Shown piece by piece: positions 32,303 to 39,772 of a stretch of 64,000 nt of DNA. The DNA is from Geothrix oryzae (lineage in GTDB: Bacteria; Acidobacteriota; Holophagae; Holophagales; Holophagaceae). The translations under genes were made by a program, and so were the position numbers. The DNA is taken from NCBI RefSeq assembly GCF_030295385.1, contig NZ_AP027079.1, positions 434,001-498,000 on the forward strand, given 5' to 3'. How positions within the stretch are numbered: the stretch's first letter is position 1; the number at the start of each line of letters is the position of its first letter. Below the pieces are notes generated by a model. That model was not told where the DNA came from and made no database searches. It saw only the letters and a list, made by a program, of their open reading frames with translations.

Positions 32303-33667
32303 ATGACCCCCGAGCCTTCCTTCCGCGAGAAGTACCGTTTCCCTGCCAGCTACTGGAACGCGAATCTCACCGAGCTGTTCGAGCGGGCCGCCTACTATTC
32401 GATGGCCAGCTTCATCGTCATCTACCTGGGGCGCCTGGGCCTGGGCGACTACTGGCCCAGCACGCTCAACGGCGTGCTCTGGTTCCTGGTCTACTTCCTG
32501 CCCATTCTCAGCGGGACCATCGCCGACCAGATCGGTTTCCGCCGCAGCCTGCTCATGGCCTGCGTGCTGCTCGTGGGTGGCTACTTCCTCATGGGCTACC
32601 CGGTGTGGTTCGGGGGGCAGACGCTGGCCCTCCAGGCCGGAAAGGAGGTCACGGCGGGCCTCGGCGTGATGGTGCCCGTGGCCATGGCCATCGTGCTGAT
32701 CGGGATCGGCGGCTCCTTCGTGAAGCCCTGCATCGCGGGCACCGTGCAGCGCACGCACCTGGGCAAGGCCACCCTGGCCTTCGCCATCTTCTACATGGTC
32801 ATCAACATCGGCAGCGTGTTCGGGCGCCTCACGGCCTTCTTCGTGCGGACCAAGCTCGGCAAGCTCGACACCATCTTCGTCGTGTCCATGGTGGCGGCGG
32901 TGCTGGCCTTCCTGGTGGTGGCGCTGCTCTACCGCGATCCCGAGTCCGCGGTGGATCCCGCCAAGCCCAAGCGCAGCGTGGCCGAGGTGCTTCTCGGGAT
33001 CTTCAAGGTGCTGCGTAGCGGCCGCTTCACCATGTTCATGGTCGTGAGCAGCGGCTTCTACTTCATCTACAACCAGGTCTACAACGTTCTGCCCCTCTAT
33101 GTGAAGAAGACGGTGGAGCTGTCGCCCGCCATGGACCTCTACACCATGGCCAACCCCATCACCATCGTGCTGTTCCAGCTGCTCATCACGAAGCTGTTCG
33201 GCAAGCTTCCGCCCATCAAGTCCATCATCGTGGGCACCGCGATCATCGGCCTCTCCATGCTCATCAATGTGGCGCCCCTCTTCATGGCCGGGGGCGTGAC
33301 GGCGAAGCTGCTGCTGCCCATGGGCAGCCTGTTCGTGGTGATGACCGTGGCGCTGATCGCCTTCGGCGAGCTGTTCGCCTCCAGCCGCCTCTACGAGTAC
33401 ATCGGCTCCCTGGCGCCCAAGGGCCAGGAGGGGCTCTTCCTGGGCTACGCCAACCTGCCCATGGCCATCGGCAGCCTGGTGGGCGGCCCGGCCGGCGCCT
33501 GGCTCTTCAACAAGGTCATGTGCGCAGGTGCCGTGACGCAGGCCGATGGCCTGCTGAAGCTGGATCCCAAGGCCGCTGCCACGGGCTGGATCATCCTCAC
33601 CCTCTTCGGCCTGGGCAGCGCGTTCAGCCTGTGGATCTACAACCGCTGGCTGCAGAAGCAGGCCTGA
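32303..33667 (+). CDS. POT-family proton-dependent peptide transporter
   Basis: A 454-residue major-facilitator protein with about 12-14 helices. The POT signature ExxER is present near residue 24 (LTELFERAAYYSMASF), and the N-terminal half continues with LSGTIADQIGFRRSL. It would import di- and tripeptides with protons. ATG 32303 is preceded by GAGG. The last 20 bases of the gene are repeated immediately after it. Confidence 0.85.
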   Translation: MTPEPSFREKYRFPASYWNANLTELFERAAYYSMASFIVIYLGRLGLGDYWPSTLNGVLWFLVYFLPILSGTIADQIGFRRSLLMACVLLVGGYFLMGYPVWFGGQTLALQAGKEVTAGLGVMVPVAMAIVLIGIGGSFVKPCIAGTVQRTHLGKATLAFAIFYMVINIGSVFGRLTAFFVRTKLGKLDTIFVVSMVAAVLAFLVVALLYRDPESAVDPAKPKRSVAEVLLGIFKVLRSGRFTMFMVVSSGFYFIYNQVYNVLPLYVKKTVELSPAMDLYTMANPITIVLFQLLITKLFGKLPPIKSIIVGTAIIGLSMLINVAPLFMAGGVTAKLLLPMGSLFVVMTVALIAFGELFASSRLYEYIGSLAPKGQEGLFLGYANLPMAIGSLVGGPAGAWLFNKVMCAGAVTQADGLLKLDPKAAATGWIILTLFGLGSAFSLWIYNRWLQKQA

Positions 33668-33693: not shown

Positions 33694-36060
33694 TCAGCCG
33701 CCCGGCAGGATCTCGGCGAAGGCGGCCTGGAGCTCCCGGAAGCTGAAGGGCTTGGCCAGGATGGTCACGCCGGGGTGGGCGTGGGCCAGGTCGATGGCCT
33801 GCTGATCGGCTCGCCCCGTGGACAGCAGGATGGGGACTTCCGGCAGGGCCGCCCGCAGCTTGGGAAGGGTGCCGGTGCCCCCCCAGCCCGGCATGTTCAT
33901 GTCGAGGATGATGACGGAGGGCCGCAGGCCCCGGTCCAGCAGCGCCATGGCGTCCTCGCCGCAGTCCGTCAGCGTGGCCTGGTGGCCCATGGCCTCCAAT
34001 TGGGCTGAAACCGCGGAACGGATGAGCTCGTCGTCGTCCACCAGGAGGATGTTCAAGGGCTGGGCCGACGCGCTCGGCCCGGAGGTTCCCGGGCCTGCCG
34101 GTTCGCTCCGGGTTTCCACGGCGGGGAACCGCATCTCGATGCTGGTTCCCTGGCCGGACCAGCTCTGGATGTTCAGTTCCCCGTGGTGCGCCTTCACCGT
34201 GCTGTAGACCAGGGAGAGGCCCAGGCCCGTGCCCTTGCCCTGGGGCTTGGTGGTGAAGAAGGGTTCGAGGGCGCGCTCGAGGGTTTCCGGGGCCATGCCG
34301 GTTCCCGAATCCGCCACGGTCACCACCACCTGCCCGTCATGGAGCCGGGTGCTCAAGGTGAGGCGGCCGCCTTCGGTCATGGCATCCACGGCATTCACGC
34401 ACAGGTTCATCAGCATGAGGCTGAGCGCGTCGGCGTCGCCGAGGATGCCCTCCACGCTGGGGCTGAGATCCAGCGTGATGGCGATGTTCGGCGGGATGGT
34501 CCGCTCCAGGAGGCGGGCCTCCTCCTGGATGAGGCGGTTGACGGGCACGGAGCGTTCCCCGGCCATGTCCTTCCGCGCGAAATCCAGGAGGCTCTTCACC
34601 ATGTTCCGCCCCCTCAGGCAGGCCTTGGTGATGGTCTCGAAGGTGGCGTGGAGCCGGCTGCCCTCGGGCTGGAGGTCGAGGTGCGTGGTCGCGAGCCCGA
34701 GGATCGCCCCCAGCACATTGTTCATGTCGTGGGCCAGGCCGCCCGCCAGGTTGCCCAGGCTCTCCATCTTCTGGGCCACGCGCAGGGCCTCCTGGGTCTT
34801 GAGCTCCTCCGTGACATCGCGGAAGACCGCGAGGCTGCCGGTGAACTGGCCGTCCGCATCGCGCCTGGGCGTGGCGGTGAGCTGGAGGATGCGCCGGATC
34901 CCGTCGGGGCGCCGGATCCGCACCTGGTAGGAGTCAGTGTGTCCGTCGAGCCTTCGCAGGGTGTGATCCACGACCCGCAACCAGTCGGATTCATCCAGGT
35001 ACGGCCGGAGGTTCTGGCCGACCAGCTGGTTGTGATCGACACCGAAGATGCGGTCGGCTTCGCGGTTGGCCATGACCACGGTCTCGTGGCGGTCCGTGAT
35101 GGCCACGCCTTCGCCGAGGATCTCCACGAGTTCCCGGTGGTGCGCCTCGCTGGCGCGGAGCGCGGATTCGGCCGCCTCCCGCTCGGTGAGATCCCGGATG
35201 AAGCCGATGAGCATGTTCCGGCCGGGAACATAGGTCGTCGACACCTCCACCGGGTAGGTGGTTCCGTCCTTGCGCCGGTGCAGGGCCCTGAAGCGGTCCG
35301 AGCCTTCGCGCTTCATCTTCTCGCTGTGGTTGTCGGTCTCCTGGCGGGATTCGTTCGCATCCATGTCGGTGATGTGCCGGCCCCGGATGTCGTCCAGCGA
35401 GTACCCCGACATCTGCAGGTAGGCTCCGTTCGCGTCGAGGATCCGCCCGTCGCCCGCCACCACGAGGAATCCGTCCAGGTTGGTCTGAAGCAGGGCCTGG
35501 TACTCCTCGGCTTGGGCCAGGACCTTGGCCTCCTGGGATTCGAAGTGGACCGTGTTCCGCAGGATGAGGGCGAAGACGGGCGACAGCACCTTGAGCAGAC
35601 GGACGACATCGTCGGAACGGTAGAGGTCGAGGTGATCCAACGCGAAGAGCGTGCCCACGCGCCGATCCCCCACCCGCAGGGGGGTCATGCTCAGGGACTC
35701 GAGGCCGAGCCCTTCGAGGAGCGCGGCGGATCGGGGCTCGGCGGTGCGCTTGATCAGGAAGGTGGCCTCGTGGGCGTCTGGGTAGAGCTGGACGAGCTGG
35801 TCCAGGCCGTCCAGCAGGGCGGGGGTCCGGGCCCGTTCGGGTTTGAGGGCCACGATCCGGGCGGGCCCGCTCTCGGGGCCGGGCCCGTGCTGCAGGAGCA
35901 CCACGATGCGGGCGCCCATCACCTCGCGGAGCTGGCGCGTCAGGAACTGGCCCATCTCGCCGGGGCTCTCCGAGAACTTCAGGATCTCCTCGAGGAAGTC
36001 CAGAATCATGAACTGGACGGCGGCGCTGTCGGGAGGTCGCATGGCGTCACCGGTCGTCAT
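33694..36060 (-). CDS. Hybrid sensor histidine kinase, cytoplasmic (GAF-PAS-PAS-HK-REC)
   Basis: A 788-residue protein without membrane helices. The order is a GAF-like domain (about 15-180), PAS 1 (about 185-300), PAS 2 (about 305-425), and HisKA with phospho-acceptor H444 in [12 protein letters not shown]. An HATPase domain follows ([32 protein letters not shown]), then a C-terminal receiver (ILLVDDDE, acceptor Asp in IILDMNMPG, Lys in LAKPFS). It is the last gene of the corrinoid/DUF1638 operon and overlaps the DUF1638 gene by 14 bases, so it may sense the state or substrate of that system. No DNA-binding output partner is nearby. Confidence 0.9.
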
Positions 36061-36652
36061 GGCGCCTCGCGGAGCGGGCCGCTTCCCGCAGGCTGGCGAG
36101 AAGCGGGTCGAGGGACACGGGCAGGACCTCCACGGGCAGGCCGAGGTACTCGGAGGCCTCGTTCAGGGCCTGCCAGGGCACGGGCTGGATGCCCGTGTCG
36201 AGGTAGATCAGCCGGGTGTGCATCTCCTGCATGAAGGTTTTCGCGTTGGTGCCAAGCAGCCCGAGCTGGCTCATGAACACCTGCCGCCAGGACAGGGCCC
36301 ACTCGGGCATGAGGAAAAAGGCCCCTTCGCGCCGGAGCCGCCGGTAGGCCTCCCGGCCGAGGATGATCTCGCAGCAGTTGATGCCTTCCGTGCGGTCGAT
36401 GCCGGGCTTCGCCCGGAAGTCCTCCATGTGGCCGCAGCAGTCGCCGAACGCGATCAGGACCTCCTGCCCTTGGGCGCCCGCCTCGGTGAGCGAAGCGGCC
36501 AGGCGCGTATCCAGTCGGTCCGGGACCATGTGGAGCATGGAGGGCAGGTAGTCCACGGCCAGGTCCAGCGCCCCCGACGCCTGCAGCGATTCGATCTCCC
36601 GCCGGAAGATCGAGCAGGCGATGCAGCGCGGAGGCGGGGGATCCAGCGTCAC
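36047..36652 (-). CDS. DUF1638 family protein
   Basis: A 201-residue cysteine-rich cytoplasmic protein: CIACSIFRREIESL at the N-terminus, FGDCCGHMEDF and GINCCEIILGREAYRRL in the middle, consistent with DUF1638. The family is known mainly from methanogens and anaerobes, often near corrinoid methyltransferases; its function is unknown. The paired cysteines suggest a metal or iron-sulfur site. GTG at 36652 overlaps the upstream stop (GTGA). The gene overlaps the downstream kinase by 14 bases. Confidence 0.8.
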   Translation of the reverse strand: MTLDPPPPRCIACSIFRREIESLQASGALDLAVDYLPSMLHMVPDRLDTRLAASLTEAGAQGQEVLIAFGDCCGHMEDFRAKPGIDRTEGINCCEIILGREAYRRLRREGAFFLMPEWALSWRQVFMSQLGLLGTNAKTFMQEMHTRLIYLDTGIQPVPWQALNEASEYLGLPVEVLPVSLDPLLASLREAARSARRHDDR

Positions 36653-37674
36653 CGCAGGCCTCCCCCGGCCAGGCAGATGGCCTCGGTGATGGCCTGGAGG
36701 CAGTCGGGTGGAGTTTCCAGCGGCACATCCGCGCCGGAGGTCGCCAGGATGAATTGGGGATCCGGGGAGCCCGCGTCCAGGGCCCGCTCGCAGAGGCCGC
36801 GGACCTGCTCGGGGGAAAGGTCCGCCAGGCCGGGTCCGTCGAGGTTCCCCAGCAGCAGGGGACCGGGGCCGAGGATGGCCCGGGCCGCGGCCAGGTCTTC
36901 CCCGGCATCCACCAGGAAGCCCACGACCTGGGGGAGACCCCTGAAATCCGCGAGGTGGGGGACGAGGGGACAGCCCCCGTGGTGGACGATGATGGGGCCG
37001 GGGATCTGGCTGAAGGCCCGTTCCAGCGCCGGCCGGGAGAGGCCGGTCACGACCTCGGCGGGAACCATGAAGCGGTTCGCCAGGTTGGCCGTCAGGGCCA
37101 GGGCGGTGGCGCCGTCCTGGAGCATGGCCGTCCCCAACTGCACGAAAAAGTCCGTGCAGCGGTCGAGGAGTGCGCGGGCCTCCTCCGGTCGGAAGAGCAG
37201 GGCATCCAGCCAGGCCTCCAGGCCGATGATGAGGGGGGGCAGGTCGGGGGGGCTCACCAGGAGCCCGATGACGGGGACCTCGCCCTCGTATTTCCGGGCG
37301 AGGATCCGGATGGTCTCGCGCAGGTAGAGCAGCCTGGGATGGCCGTCCACATCGGGCAGCGGCAGCCGGAGCGCCGCCGAGGCGGAATCCGCGGCGAAGG
37401 CCCGGATATTCGGGGCCTGCTCGAGAGGGCCTCCGGCCCGGCTGCCGAAGGCCTCGCCGAGCGCCGACACCAGGAAGGGGCTCAGCAGCAGGTCGGGGCC
37501 GAAGGTCTCCCGGACAGCCATCTGTCCTTCGGCGAACACCGCCGGGTCGGCGAAGTGCGCCTTCACCGGGGCTCCCGTGAGCCGGGATCCGTAGAGGCTC
37601 AGGTTGAGCAGGAAGGGAGGCCGGTCCGAGGGCTGCCCCTGAAGCGCGGCGAGCACGCGTTCGAGGCTGTTCAT
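36649..37674 (-). CDS. UroD/MtaA-family corrinoid methyltransferase homologue
   Basis: A 341-residue protein of the uroporphyrinogen decarboxylase/MtaA superfamily. In methanogens MtaA-type enzymes move methyl groups from a corrinoid protein to coenzyme M. It has ERVLAALQGQPSDRPPF at the start, DGATALALTANLANRFM, then PIIVHHGGCPLVPHL and LGNLDGPGLADLSPEQV. The expected zinc motif HxC is replaced by HHGGC (H231, H232, C235), and the downstream GC motif reads SGAD (313-316). It may therefore bind metal differently or act non-catalytically. ATG 37674 overlaps the corrinoid gene stop. Confidence 0.75.
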   Translation of the reverse strand: MNSLERVLAALQGQPSDRPPFLLNLSLYGSRLTGAPVKAHFADPAVFAEGQMAVRETFGPDLLLSPFLVSALGEAFGSRAGGPLEQAPNIRAFAADSASAALRLPLPDVDGHPRLLYLRETIRILARKYEGEVPVIGLLVSPPDLPPLIIGLEAWLDALLFRPEEARALLDRCTDFFVQLGTAMLQDGATALALTANLANRFMVPAEVVTGLSRPALERAFSQIPGPIIVHHGGCPLVPHLADFRGLPQVVGFLVDAGEDLAAARAILGPGPLLLGNLDGPGLADLSPEQVRGLCERALDAGSPDPQFILATSGADVPLETPPDCLQAITEAICLAGGGLR

Positions 37675-38369
37675 GGGCGCATTCCCCCGGGGGCGGGCTC
37701 GAAGGTCAGGGCCTGCTGCCACAGGCGCTCGAACAGGGCGGGCGCCTCGGCGGCGCTGGCGGCGGTGCCGTCCCCGCCGAAGGCCTCGACGAGTTCGGGC
37801 CGGAGCTTGAACACGGCCCCGCCGACGGCGAGCTGGAGCCGGCCCCGGAGACCCCGCCGGTCGATCTCGTCCCGGAGCTTCGCCACATTCTTCGCCGTGG
37901 TGAACATCATCGCCGAGGCCCCGATCACGCGGGCGCCGGTCTCCTCGGCCATGTCCACGAACTGGGCGGGGCCGATGTCCACGCCCAGGTCATGGACCTC
38001 CCATCCGGCCGCCCGGAGGAAAGCCGCGACCATCTTCCGGCCCAGGGGGTGGAAATCATCCTCCACATTCCCCACCAGCACCGGTCCCTTCGCCGGCAGG
38101 GCGGGGGTCTCGCGGGAGGCGGATTCCAGGAGCAGGCGCGACAGCACATCTTCGGCCACCTTGGAGGCCACATAGCCCGTGGCGAGCGACACCCCACCGG
38201 TGCCCTGCGCCCAGAGCTTGCCGAAGGTCTCCAGGGTTGGGGCGAGGAGCTCCGGGATGACCCGGTGGAAGGACCGGCCCATGGCCCACGCATCGACCAC
38301 CGCGTTGGCGCCCGCCCGGTCGGCCTTCTGAATGGCCTCGAGAAGGTCCCGGGAGTAGTTCCGATCCAT
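37671..38369 (-). CDS. Corrinoid (B12-binding) protein, MtaC/MtbC-like
   Basis: A 232-residue protein with an N-terminal helical cap (about 1-90) and a Rossmann-like cobalamin domain. DDFHPLG (104-110) gives the DxHxxG motif with H107 as lower cobalt ligand. ASAMM and the VGGAVF turn follow. It should carry a methyl group on cobalamin for the next-door UroD-type protein or act as a B12-based sensor. The substrate-specific methyltransferase (MtaB/MtbB class) is not in the window. ATG 38369 has GGAGG upstream; an ATG at 38396 lacks one. First gene of the operon. Confidence 0.87.
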   Translation of the reverse strand: MDRNYSRDLLEAIQKADRAGANAVVDAWAMGRSFHRVIPELLAPTLETFGKLWAQGTGGVSLATGYVASKVAEDVLSRLLLESASRETPALPAKGPVLVGNVEDDFHPLGRKMVAAFLRAAGWEVHDLGVDIGPAQFVDMAEETGARVIGASAMMFTTAKNVAKLRDEIDRRGLRGRLQLAVGGAVFKLRPELVEAFGGDGTAASAAEAPALFERLWQQALTFEPAPGGMRP

Positions 38370-38581: not shown

Positions 38582-38617
38582 TTTCCCGTGATAATGGGAG
38601 ACCCTCCCGAGGTTGTC

Positions 38618-39772
38618 ATGTCCAAGAAGGAAACGCCGCTCTTCCCCCTGCGCAAGGGCCTGCATGCGCGTCAGGCCCATGTGGACCTGCCCGCCGGCAC
38701 CTTCGAGGAGGAGCACGCGCGGCAGGGTTTCTTCGGGCGCACCACGCACCTCTACCGCCTGCATCCGGTCACGGACTGGACGCGCATCGAAGGTCCCCTG
38801 CGCCCCCACAGCTACGACCTGAACCCGCTGGCGGACTCCGCCGATGCCAAGGTGAAGGCCTCGATGTTCGGCTCCACGGAAACCGCCTTCGCTCCCATCT
38901 GCATCCTCCACAACGGGGATGTGGCCCTGCACTGGGTGGCACCCGCCGCCATGGACTTCTTCTACCGCAACGCCGACGGGGACGATGTCTACTACATCCA
39001 CGCGGGCGGCGGCAAGCTGGAGACCACCTTCGGCGCCCTCGTCTACGCCACGGGCGACTACCTGGTGATCCCCCGCGGCACGACCTACCGCTTCCTGCCC
39101 GGCGAGGGCCCGCAGCGCTACCTGCTCATCGAGAGCTTCAGCGAAGTGACCATCCCCGACCGCAACCAGCTGGGGCCCAACGCCATTTTCGACCCCGCCA
39201 TGGTGGACACGCCGGAGCTGGAGCCCTACGAGATGAACCCGAAGGGGGGGCCGCGCGAGTGGGCCGTCCACATCAAGCGCGAAAGCCAGATCACCAAGGT
39301 GTTCTACCCCTTCAACCCGCTGGATGTGGTGGGCTGGAAGGGCGATCTCACCGTGTGGCGCATCAATGTGAAGGACATCCGGCCCGTCCTCAGCGCCCGC
39401 TACCATCTGCCACCCTCGGCACACTCCACCTTCATCGCCAACAACTTCGTCATCTGCTCCTTCCTGCCTCGACCCTTCGAGGAAGAAGAAGGCGCCATGC
39501 GCGTGCCCTTCTACCACTCCAACATCGACTACGACGAAGTGCTGTTCTACTCGGCGGGCCACTTCTTCAGTCGCGATGGCATCGGCGCCGGCATGATGAC
39601 CTGGCATCCCCAGGGCATCCACCACGGGCCGCACCCCAAGGCCATCCCCCTCAGCCGCACCAAAGAGCGCACCGATGAGGTGGCCGTCATGGTGGATGCC
39701 TTCCGTCCCCTCCGGGCCACGCCCGCCGCCGAGCTGATGGAGAACCTCAATTACTGGGCGAGCTGGAAGTAG
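38618..39772 (+). CDS. hmgA: Homogentisate 1,2-dioxygenase
   Basis: A ring-cleaving non-heme iron enzyme of tyrosine and phenylalanine breakdown that makes maleylacetoacetate. Its 384 residues form the shorter bacterial version with a two-cupin fold: HWVAPAAMDFFYRNADGDDVYYIHAGGG and the iron site region YHSNIDYDEVLFY followed by HPQGIHHGPHP. The oxygen requirement implies at least some aerobic life. ATG 38618 has GAGG upstream. A fumarylacetoacetase-family gene lies 4.7 kb away at 44458; no maleylacetoacetate isomerase is present here. Confidence 0.85.
   Translation: MSKKETPLFPLRKGLHARQAHVDLPAGTFEEEHARQGFFGRTTHLYRLHPVTDWTRIEGPLRPHSYDLNPLADSADAKVKASMFGSTETAFAPICILHNGDVALHWVAPAAMDFFYRNADGDDVYYIHAGGGKLETTFGALVYATGDYLVIPRGTTYRFLPGEGPQRYLLIESFSEVTIPDRNQLGPNAIFDPAMVDTPELEPYEMNPKGGPREWAVHIKRESQITKVFYPFNPLDVVGWKGDLTVWRINVKDIRPVLSARYHLPPSAHSTFIANNFVICSFLPRPFEEEEGAMRVPFYHSNIDYDEVLFYSAGHFFSRDGIGAGMMTWHPQGIHHGPHPKAIPLSRTKERTDEVAVMVDAFRPLRATPAAELMENLNYWASWK

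Follow-up and report, generated by a model that had tools for sequence, protein, structure and literature searches.

We analysed a window of 64,000 nucleotides (nt) from Geothrix oryzae, C1:434001-498000 of a genome that is a single contig of 3.27 Mb, and are concerned here with four overlapping genes on its minus strand, at positions 33694-38369, that encode a corrinoid-binding protein (COR), a homologue of methyltransferases of the UroD/MtaA fold (URO), a DUF1638 protein and a soluble hybrid histidine kinase. Our results suggest that the four proteins probably act as one signalling complex, in which the methyl or redox state of the corrinoid would be set by URO, read by DUF1638 and passed on to the kinase. 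The signalling module itself is well supported; that its members form a complex, the direction in which information flows, the binding of metal and the nature of the signal are what we infer. The initial annotation of these genes had proposed a sensing device rather than a catabolic pathway, and the linkage of the genes, the fusions between them and the lack of a paired substrate methyltransferase in the searches made all support this proposal.

Conservation of the cassette

The genes follow each other on the minus strand in the order COR (37671-38369, 232 amino acids, aa), URO (36649-37674, 341 aa), DUF1638 (36047-36652, 201 aa, with a GTG start) and kinase (33694-36060, 788 aa). The four genes and three overlaps of the initial annotation are borne out by the sequence and by Pfam: a 4-nt ATGA shared by the COR stop and the URO start (37671-37674), a 4-nt GTGA shared by the URO stop and the DUF1638 start (36649-36652) and 14 nt shared by DUF1638 and the kinase (36047-36060). 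In 47 genomes of the genus PF07796, the DUF1638 family, was found in 21, at 24 places, and the surroundings of all 24 were inspected. Fifteen of these places, the window included, hold the same type of cassette, here called type I, and the kinase adjoins DUF1638 in all 14 of the other cassettes. By the gene calls made in this analysis, the first overlap is of 4 nt in 11 of these 14 and the second in 10 of them, while the DUF1638/kinase overlap, of 8, 14 or 29 nt, is found in all 14. As the order is kept in 14 other genus genomes and this last overlap in every one, the arrangement is not due to chance. The flanks of the cassette are partly syntenic in the genus. Genomes G045 and G013 have the order RamA-COR-URO-DUF1638-kinase, with a hybrid kinase of 1166 or 1168 aa that has four PAS stretches (Pfam, one examined). 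RamA (PF14574) was found in two of the 47 genomes, both times beside DUF1638. In G043 and G018 DUF1638 is fused to a kinase (DUF1638-GAF-HisKA-HATPase-REC in G043 by Pfam, REC being the receiver domain) and in G016 to PAS-GGDEF (Pfam).

In the phylum, DUF1638 was found at 36 places in 28 of 396 Acidobacteriota genomes. Of the 21 places that lie outside the genus, five belong to the signalling type and 16, some of them on short contigs, lack the COR-URO-DUF1638-signalling order. Among the five, L046, L050 and L053 have COR-URO-DUF1638-kinase, and in L054 an extended DUF1638 protein is followed by a PAS kinase gene. At L055:9121-11481 DUF1638 leads into a PAS domain and then an out-of-frame GGDEF-like stretch (by eye), which may be a frameshifted gene or an assembly error.

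The co-occurrence of the four families, proposed with the initial annotation as a check, was examined by comparing an alignment of DUF1638 with 84,980 species genomes. This gave 163 pattern matches, 149 of them confirmed, and the best 80 of the 149 were taken as named loci; the query was built from kinase-linked DUF1638s, and the 80 loci thus speak for old linkage within that clade and not for a sensory role of most DUF1638s. Complete sets, with COR, URO, DUF1638 and a downstream signalling gene, make up 71 of the 80 and come from 12 named phyla plus four loci with no assigned phylum. Fourteen of the 80 are records already in the genus and Acidobacteriota surveys (all complete), and the new complete loci number 57 of 66. 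A signalling gene lies downstream of DUF1638 in 76 loci. L114, L117 and L130 end 7, 435 and 799 nt past DUF1638, and in L080, L101, L119, L122 and L126 the signalling gene is present and the locus starts at a contig end. The initial annotation had set beforehand, as a possible refutation, that the kinase linkage might be lacking in relatives; it is kept there, both within the genus and in these more distant loci.

Of the 80 loci, 65 have kinase catalytic regions, three have GGDEF and eight gave GAF or PAS matches only. Six of these eight were followed up with Pfam. HisKA_2 and HATPase were found in L086 and L095, and the start of a HisKA at the end of the contig in L099; the L108 gene is truncated by its contig, L091 combines PAS domains with a separate kinase that follows, and L110 has GAF and PAS only. 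In L080 and L098 the contig stops inside the signalling gene. The window's own genome has 40 HisKA matches in 3.27 Mb, and a recurrent kinase neighbour is therefore not expected by chance. No shared metabolic partner was seen near the cassette among 10 selected open reading frames (ORFs) from Methylomonas LW13, Desulfocicer and a Methylococcales metagenome-assembled genome (MAG), two of the 10 being the LW13 kinase and GGDEF-EAL protein. One Desulfuromonadaceae MAG carries two COR-URO-DUF1638-kinase cassettes tail to tail, at L100:6252-10668 (plus strand) and L100:10676-16536 (minus strand), the second with an additional kinase-like ORF.

Fusions and phylogeny

Natural fusions join the cassette proteins as single open frames, COR with URO in L132 and L143, URO with DUF1638 in L108, and DUF1638 with a kinase in L086 (DUF1638-PAS-HisKA_2-HATPase), L041 (DUF1638-GAF-HisKA-HATPase-REC) and L042. 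In L040 the frame is DUF1638-PAS-GGDEF. Each adjacent pair of the cassette is thus fused somewhere, and nothing else in the sequences argues as strongly for a single physical complex. Where DUF1638 is fused to signalling domains it is N-terminal, which is the usual position of an input. The outputs differ, being HisKA, HisKA_2 or GGDEF, while the input genes stay constant.

In a tree of 103 DUF1638 sequences a single branch separates the rows labelled signalling-linked from all others, with support values of 81/61 and recovery in 78% of 200 bootstrap trees, a support that we regard as modest. These rows form three groups, the fused proteins, type II (many Pseudomonadota with RamA, and Geobacter-like bacteria) and type I, which includes the window; the unlinked rows are from Acidobacteriota only. 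The tree omits L114, L122, L051 and several genus loci (L021-L034, L036, L038, L043, L050 and L055), for which most of the named cassette records serve as substitutes. By its labels L120, which is without a kinase, and L117 and L130, which are cut off, count as signalling-linked, and L048, with a kinase beside it, as unlinked. Pairwise distances between the parts of the cassette correlate, with r of 0.84-0.91 in type I (46 sets) and 0.77-0.93 in type II (27 sets), values that are uncorrected for shared ancestry and are consistent with inheritance of the cassette as a unit.

The corrinoid protein and its UroD-type neighbour

COR has a cap-like N-terminus and a B12-binding domain (PF02310, 84.5 bits), and scores 22.8 bits against PF02607, just below the cut-off of 23. 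In methyltransferase corrinoid proteins the corrinoid-binding motif is DxHxxG...SxL...GG. The window protein has D105-x-H107-x-x-G110, S152-x-M154 and G183-G184, with M at position 154 where the motif has L, and D105, H107, G110, S152, M154, G183 and G184 are all invariant in 76 of 76 aligned rows, so corrinoid binding has very probably been kept. The best family matches of COR are methyltransferase corrinoid proteins (88.9 bits), the CarH model scoring 37.7. COR is nevertheless below every listed NCBIfam cut-off (MtgC, MtbC, MtaC, pyl_corrinoid), the best being the 88.9 bits against a cut-off of 215.3 for TIGR02370.

URO (PF01208, 152.7 bits) is present in 76 of the 80 named loci, with a mean identity of 42% within type I. 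Its closest match by sequence in the Protein Data Bank (PDB) is MtaA, 4ay7/4ay8, and in a model of the natural URO-DUF1638 fusion of L108 the best structural match is again 4ay7/4ay8, with a TM-score of 0.90 over the target (4ay7). CdmB (9rui), a solved Acetobacterium protein, is also found by the URO profile, at 1.9e-9. Against NCBIfam URO scores 95.6 with a cut-off of 244 (NF004889) and 79.9 with a cut-off of 235.4 (TIGR01463), below both. In MtaA the cysteine of the H-x-C motif is the first zinc cysteine, and the last one lies near the C-terminus. In the URO column for this first cysteine, located via alignment to 4ay7, none of the 77 rows has a cysteine and most have glycine, and at the zinc histidine the rows have His (48), Tyr (26) or Phe (3). 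No column of the alignment has a cysteine in more than 32 of the 77 rows. In the C-terminal columns inspected at most 9 of the 77 rows have one, and the 4ay7 alignments stop short of the last MtaA zinc cysteine.

The initial annotation had noted the absence of a substrate-specific methyltransferase and had named a constant partner elsewhere as what might refute its reading; such a partner was searched for, and this absence stands. Pfam finds neither an acceptor methyltransferase nor homocysteine or pterin methyltransferase genes in the four-gene cassette. MTTB (PF06253) is in 0 of 47 genus genomes and MtaB (PF12176) is not in the window's own genome, with Methanosarcina acetivorans positive as control for both searches. 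RamA was not detected in the own genome, and the only UroD-family matches there are a HemE-like protein and URO. A role of the cassette as methionine synthase was rejected: a MetH that is complete, activation domain included, is encoded elsewhere in the genome (PF02965; TIGR02082 at 1201 bits, cut-off 1010.85), and the cassette is therefore not needed for that reaction. The genome also encodes, near C1:242150 (L154:946-1824), a MerR-type regulator with B12-binding domains, CarH-like, which is a separate B12-based sensor.

DUF1638

The DUF1638 protein scores 97.2 bits against PF07796 (Pfam gathering score 27). In the alignment of the window protein with those of 69 of the 80 loci, 11 having been dropped as close relatives or fragments, C13, H41, C72, C93 and W118 are invariant (70 of 70 rows). 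This suggests that DUF1638 is probably a metalloprotein that uses C13/H41/C72/C93. The initial annotation had it as a metal or Fe-S component, which these invariant residues support, metal binding itself being putative. The same C/H/C/C pattern was seen by eye in the 15 complete DUF1638s of Acidobacteriota that stand outside the cassette order, so it is a trait of the DUF1638 family and not of sensing alone. In the fused DUF1638 proteins that were inspected the histidine of the set is seemingly replaced by a cysteine. Several DUF1638 proteins have a C-terminal extension (L037:7837-9063, L038, L039, L043 and L054:8955-10211); in L037 and L054 the extension ends in CxxC...CPxC (by eye), DUF1638 being the only domain that Pfam detects.

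An AlphaFold2 model of DUF1638 is an alpha/beta structure with a mean predicted local distance difference test score (pLDDT) of 92.9. Foldseek gave no PDB match to it at E <= 0.001, the best VIA-align hit (Z 8.0, a receiver domain) is within the range of common arrangements, and a PDB sequence-profile search gave a single chance-level match (E 1.3). CbiK, a cobalt chelatase, came up as well (Z 6.8, 145 aligned, root-mean-square deviation 4.8) and was given no weight. The model of the L108 fusion has a predicted TM-score (pTM) of 0.75 with residues about 280-340 poor; in its input alignment about the last 50-60 URO residues fell over the DUF1638 part, and no URO-DUF1638 interface was drawn from it.

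The view that DUF1638 has no known role, as in the initial annotation, needs correction, for genetics from 2018 ties it to B12 reactivation. In Phaeobacter inhibens a DUF1638 mutant is rescued by methionine and its fitness co-varies with that of a split B12-dependent methionine synthase, from which Price et al. infer a role in B12 reactivation together with a RamA-like protein, without proposing a specific one (Price et al. 2018, PMC5764234). Another paper cites this role as a prediction (PMC12478193).

The histidine kinase

The kinase has a GAF-like N-terminus (about residues 1-175) followed by PAS, PAS, HisKA, HATPase_c and REC, of which Pfam calls the two PAS, HisKA, HATPase_c and Response_reg. 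The motifs are present, with the H-box HDMNNV at 444, HATPase motifs at 552/584/608 and receiver motifs at 672/717/769, which points to a hybrid histidine kinase with intact catalytic motifs. No transmembrane stretch was found in it (best 19-residue Kyte-Doolittle mean 1.38). The initial description as a soluble GAF-PAS-PAS kinase thus holds for its solubility and its PAS pair; a GAF domain was not called by Pfam in the window kinase at E <= 0.001, but was called in that of L050, a relative with the same cassette (PF01590, 27.4 bits). In comparisons of the profiles of GAF-like N-termini, type I matched type II with a probability of 97.7, type I matched the DUF1638-fused proteins weakly (58.1) and type II did not match the fused set (0.8). 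GAF is a very common fold, and this likeness was not relied on as linking evidence. In Methylomonas sp. LW13 (L133:8459-12363) a REC-PAS-GGDEF-EAL protein is encoded after the cassette kinase, and this suggests cyclic di-GMP (c-di-GMP) as the output in that strain.

Outside the set, the window has a transporter-like ORF (by eye) at 32303-33667 that converges on the cassette and an ORF at 38588-39772 that diverges from it.

Proposed mechanism and alternatives

We propose that COR carries the corrinoid base-off on His107 and that URO, being without an MtaA-type zinc site for a thiol acceptor, would either bring a methyl donor, or another small one, to the cobalt or control access to it. Because no acceptor methyltransferase is encoded with URO, the methylated or redox-changed corrinoid may persist as a state instead of turning over. 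The loss of the thiol-activating cysteine fits such a stored state, as does the lack of an acceptor enzyme in the cassette. DUF1638 would read the state of the corrinoid and relay it to the kinase by way of the GAF-like N-terminus, and the kinase would autophosphorylate and pass the phosphate to its own receiver domain and on to a partner protein. RamA, where present (21 of the 80 loci), may reset the sensor. A more specific form of this mechanism is offered tentatively, as possible rather than probable: that the cassette belongs to a widespread class of bacterial sensors for methylated small molecules, in which a UroD-fold enzyme without an acceptor site methylates the cobalt of COR and DUF1638 acts as a metal-containing reader for a kinase or c-di-GMP output.

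Several observations weigh against the proposal of a sensory complex. Conserved linkage would also be expected if the kinase merely regulates a genuine methyltransferase, and URO may yet prove to be a substrate methyltransferase with catalytic activity, the zinc-site comparison covering the H-x-C part only. RamA occurs in 21 of the 80 loci, all of them Pseudomonadota, which suits catalytic turnover there, and the loci without RamA, as judged elsewhere from flanks of up to 8 kb, leave the formation of cob(I)alamin unaccounted for. Candidatus Methylobacter oryzae (L120) has RamA-COR-DUF1638 with neither URO nor a downstream kinase, and no other of the 80 loci is a true exception. As the loci are mostly from metagenome bins, single phylum assignments may be wrong, and shared ancestry may contribute to the distance correlations. 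In the genus the DUF1638s of G037, G038, G036 and G045 are extended at the C-terminus by about 200 residues; Pfam found no domain in the extension (one of four examined), and the nearest kinase gene lies kilobases off. At L048:8498-10737 a DUF1638 of the non-signalling clade is followed, after about 80 nt, by a gene for a PAS histidine kinase, with neither COR nor URO detected beside it.

The alternative that fares best is a redox or oxygen sensor, in which the Co(I)/Co(II)/Co(III) state of the COR cobalt is the signal and URO a docking scaffold. It overlaps with the sensory complex proposed above, and the two are not exclusive. The lack of detectable RamA in the own genome, where methyl-ready Co(I) may then not be replenished, would suit it, as would the variable residue at the MtaA zinc histidine and the genetic link of DUF1638 to B12 reactivation (PMC5764234). 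The occurrence of URO in nearly all loci and its identity within type I are, however, more than a bare scaffold needs, and RamA in type II loci suggests a need for Co(I) there. We consider this alternative rather doubtful.

A genuine corrinoid methyltransferase, O-demethylase-like or CmuA-like with URO as the substrate enzyme, would make the kinase a regulator of the operon and not a reader of the corrinoid. Membership of URO in the UroD superfamily and its match to CdmB are what would be expected of such an enzyme, as is the RamA that accompanies 21 of the 80 loci. Yet the window cassette has no acceptor methyltransferase, MTTB was not found in the 47 genus genomes or MtaB in the own genome, URO lacks the H-x-C zinc cysteine, and in fusions with kinases and with a GGDEF protein DUF1638 takes the place of an input, so that we regard this alternative as unlikely. 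Alkyl-cobalamins are light-labile. A light sensor, in which the kinase would respond to photolysis of the methyl- or adenosylcobalamin bound to COR, in the manner of CarH or the photocobilins, would draw on this lability and has precedent in B12 photoreceptors with GGDEF and GAF partners (PMC11796333), but is very improbable, as COR is closer to methyltransferase corrinoid proteins than to CarH, a methyltransferase homologue and DUF1638 would be superfluous, and the genome already has a separate MerR-B12 protein of the CarH-like kind.

Relation to known systems

Among known systems, the split B12 methionine synthase of Phaeobacter inhibens shares with the cassette a corrinoid protein gene adjoining DUF1638 and B12 chemistry. 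That set is biosynthetic and includes homocysteine and pterin methyltransferases and a RamA-like protein, whereas the window has URO and a kinase, with MetH elsewhere and RamA undetected (PMC5764234). MtbC, MtgC and MtaC have the B12-binding fold and DxHxxG in common with COR, which is below their NCBIfam cut-offs, and MtaA, MtbA and CmuA, of the UroD superfamily, have the fold in common with URO, which is without the H-x-C zinc cysteine and likewise below the NCBIfam cut-offs. The methylotrophic system of MT1, corrinoid protein, MT2 and RamA differs in that neither an MttB/MtaB-type enzyme nor RamA was detected in the own genome, where URO could be the substrate enzyme. The mec cassette of dichloromethane degraders likewise clusters a histidine kinase with a corrinoid protein and with methyltransferases of the UroD superfamily, but its MecA kinase is described as having a PocR domain and a separate receiver protein, it has several methyltransferases and it is thought to be catabolic (PMC9768040). 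CarH and the photocobilins also use a B12-binding domain as sensory input, but as a single protein with a fused output, and the parts of the source consulted mention neither a methyltransferase homologue nor DUF1638 (PMC11796333). The mec cassette and the B12 photoreceptors are the nearest regulated or sensory B12 systems that we found in these sources, and neither is of this make-up (PMC9768040, PMC11796333). We found no description of a corrinoid-UroD-DUF1638-kinase system among the open-access papers listed by the searches, subscription papers and preprints being outside this scope; the open-access papers on DUF1638 do not mention a link to kinases in the parts consulted, and those of PMC3543383 and PMC12316311 hold nothing related. 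The input module thus matches no described system that we found, and the kinase half is ordinary.

If the proposed complex is real, it would add a B12-based input to two-component and c-di-GMP signalling across at least 12 phyla, whose members include Geothrix, Desulfocicer and Methylomonas. DUF1638 would gain a testable role, as the point at which a corrinoid protein meets its partner, and the natural fusions mean that the architecture can be tested with single polypeptides. The proposal would also bear on how B12 proteins function where RamA is undetected. Should the cassette be a sensor of methylated molecules, it would be a case in which the half-reaction of an enzyme has been turned into a receptor.

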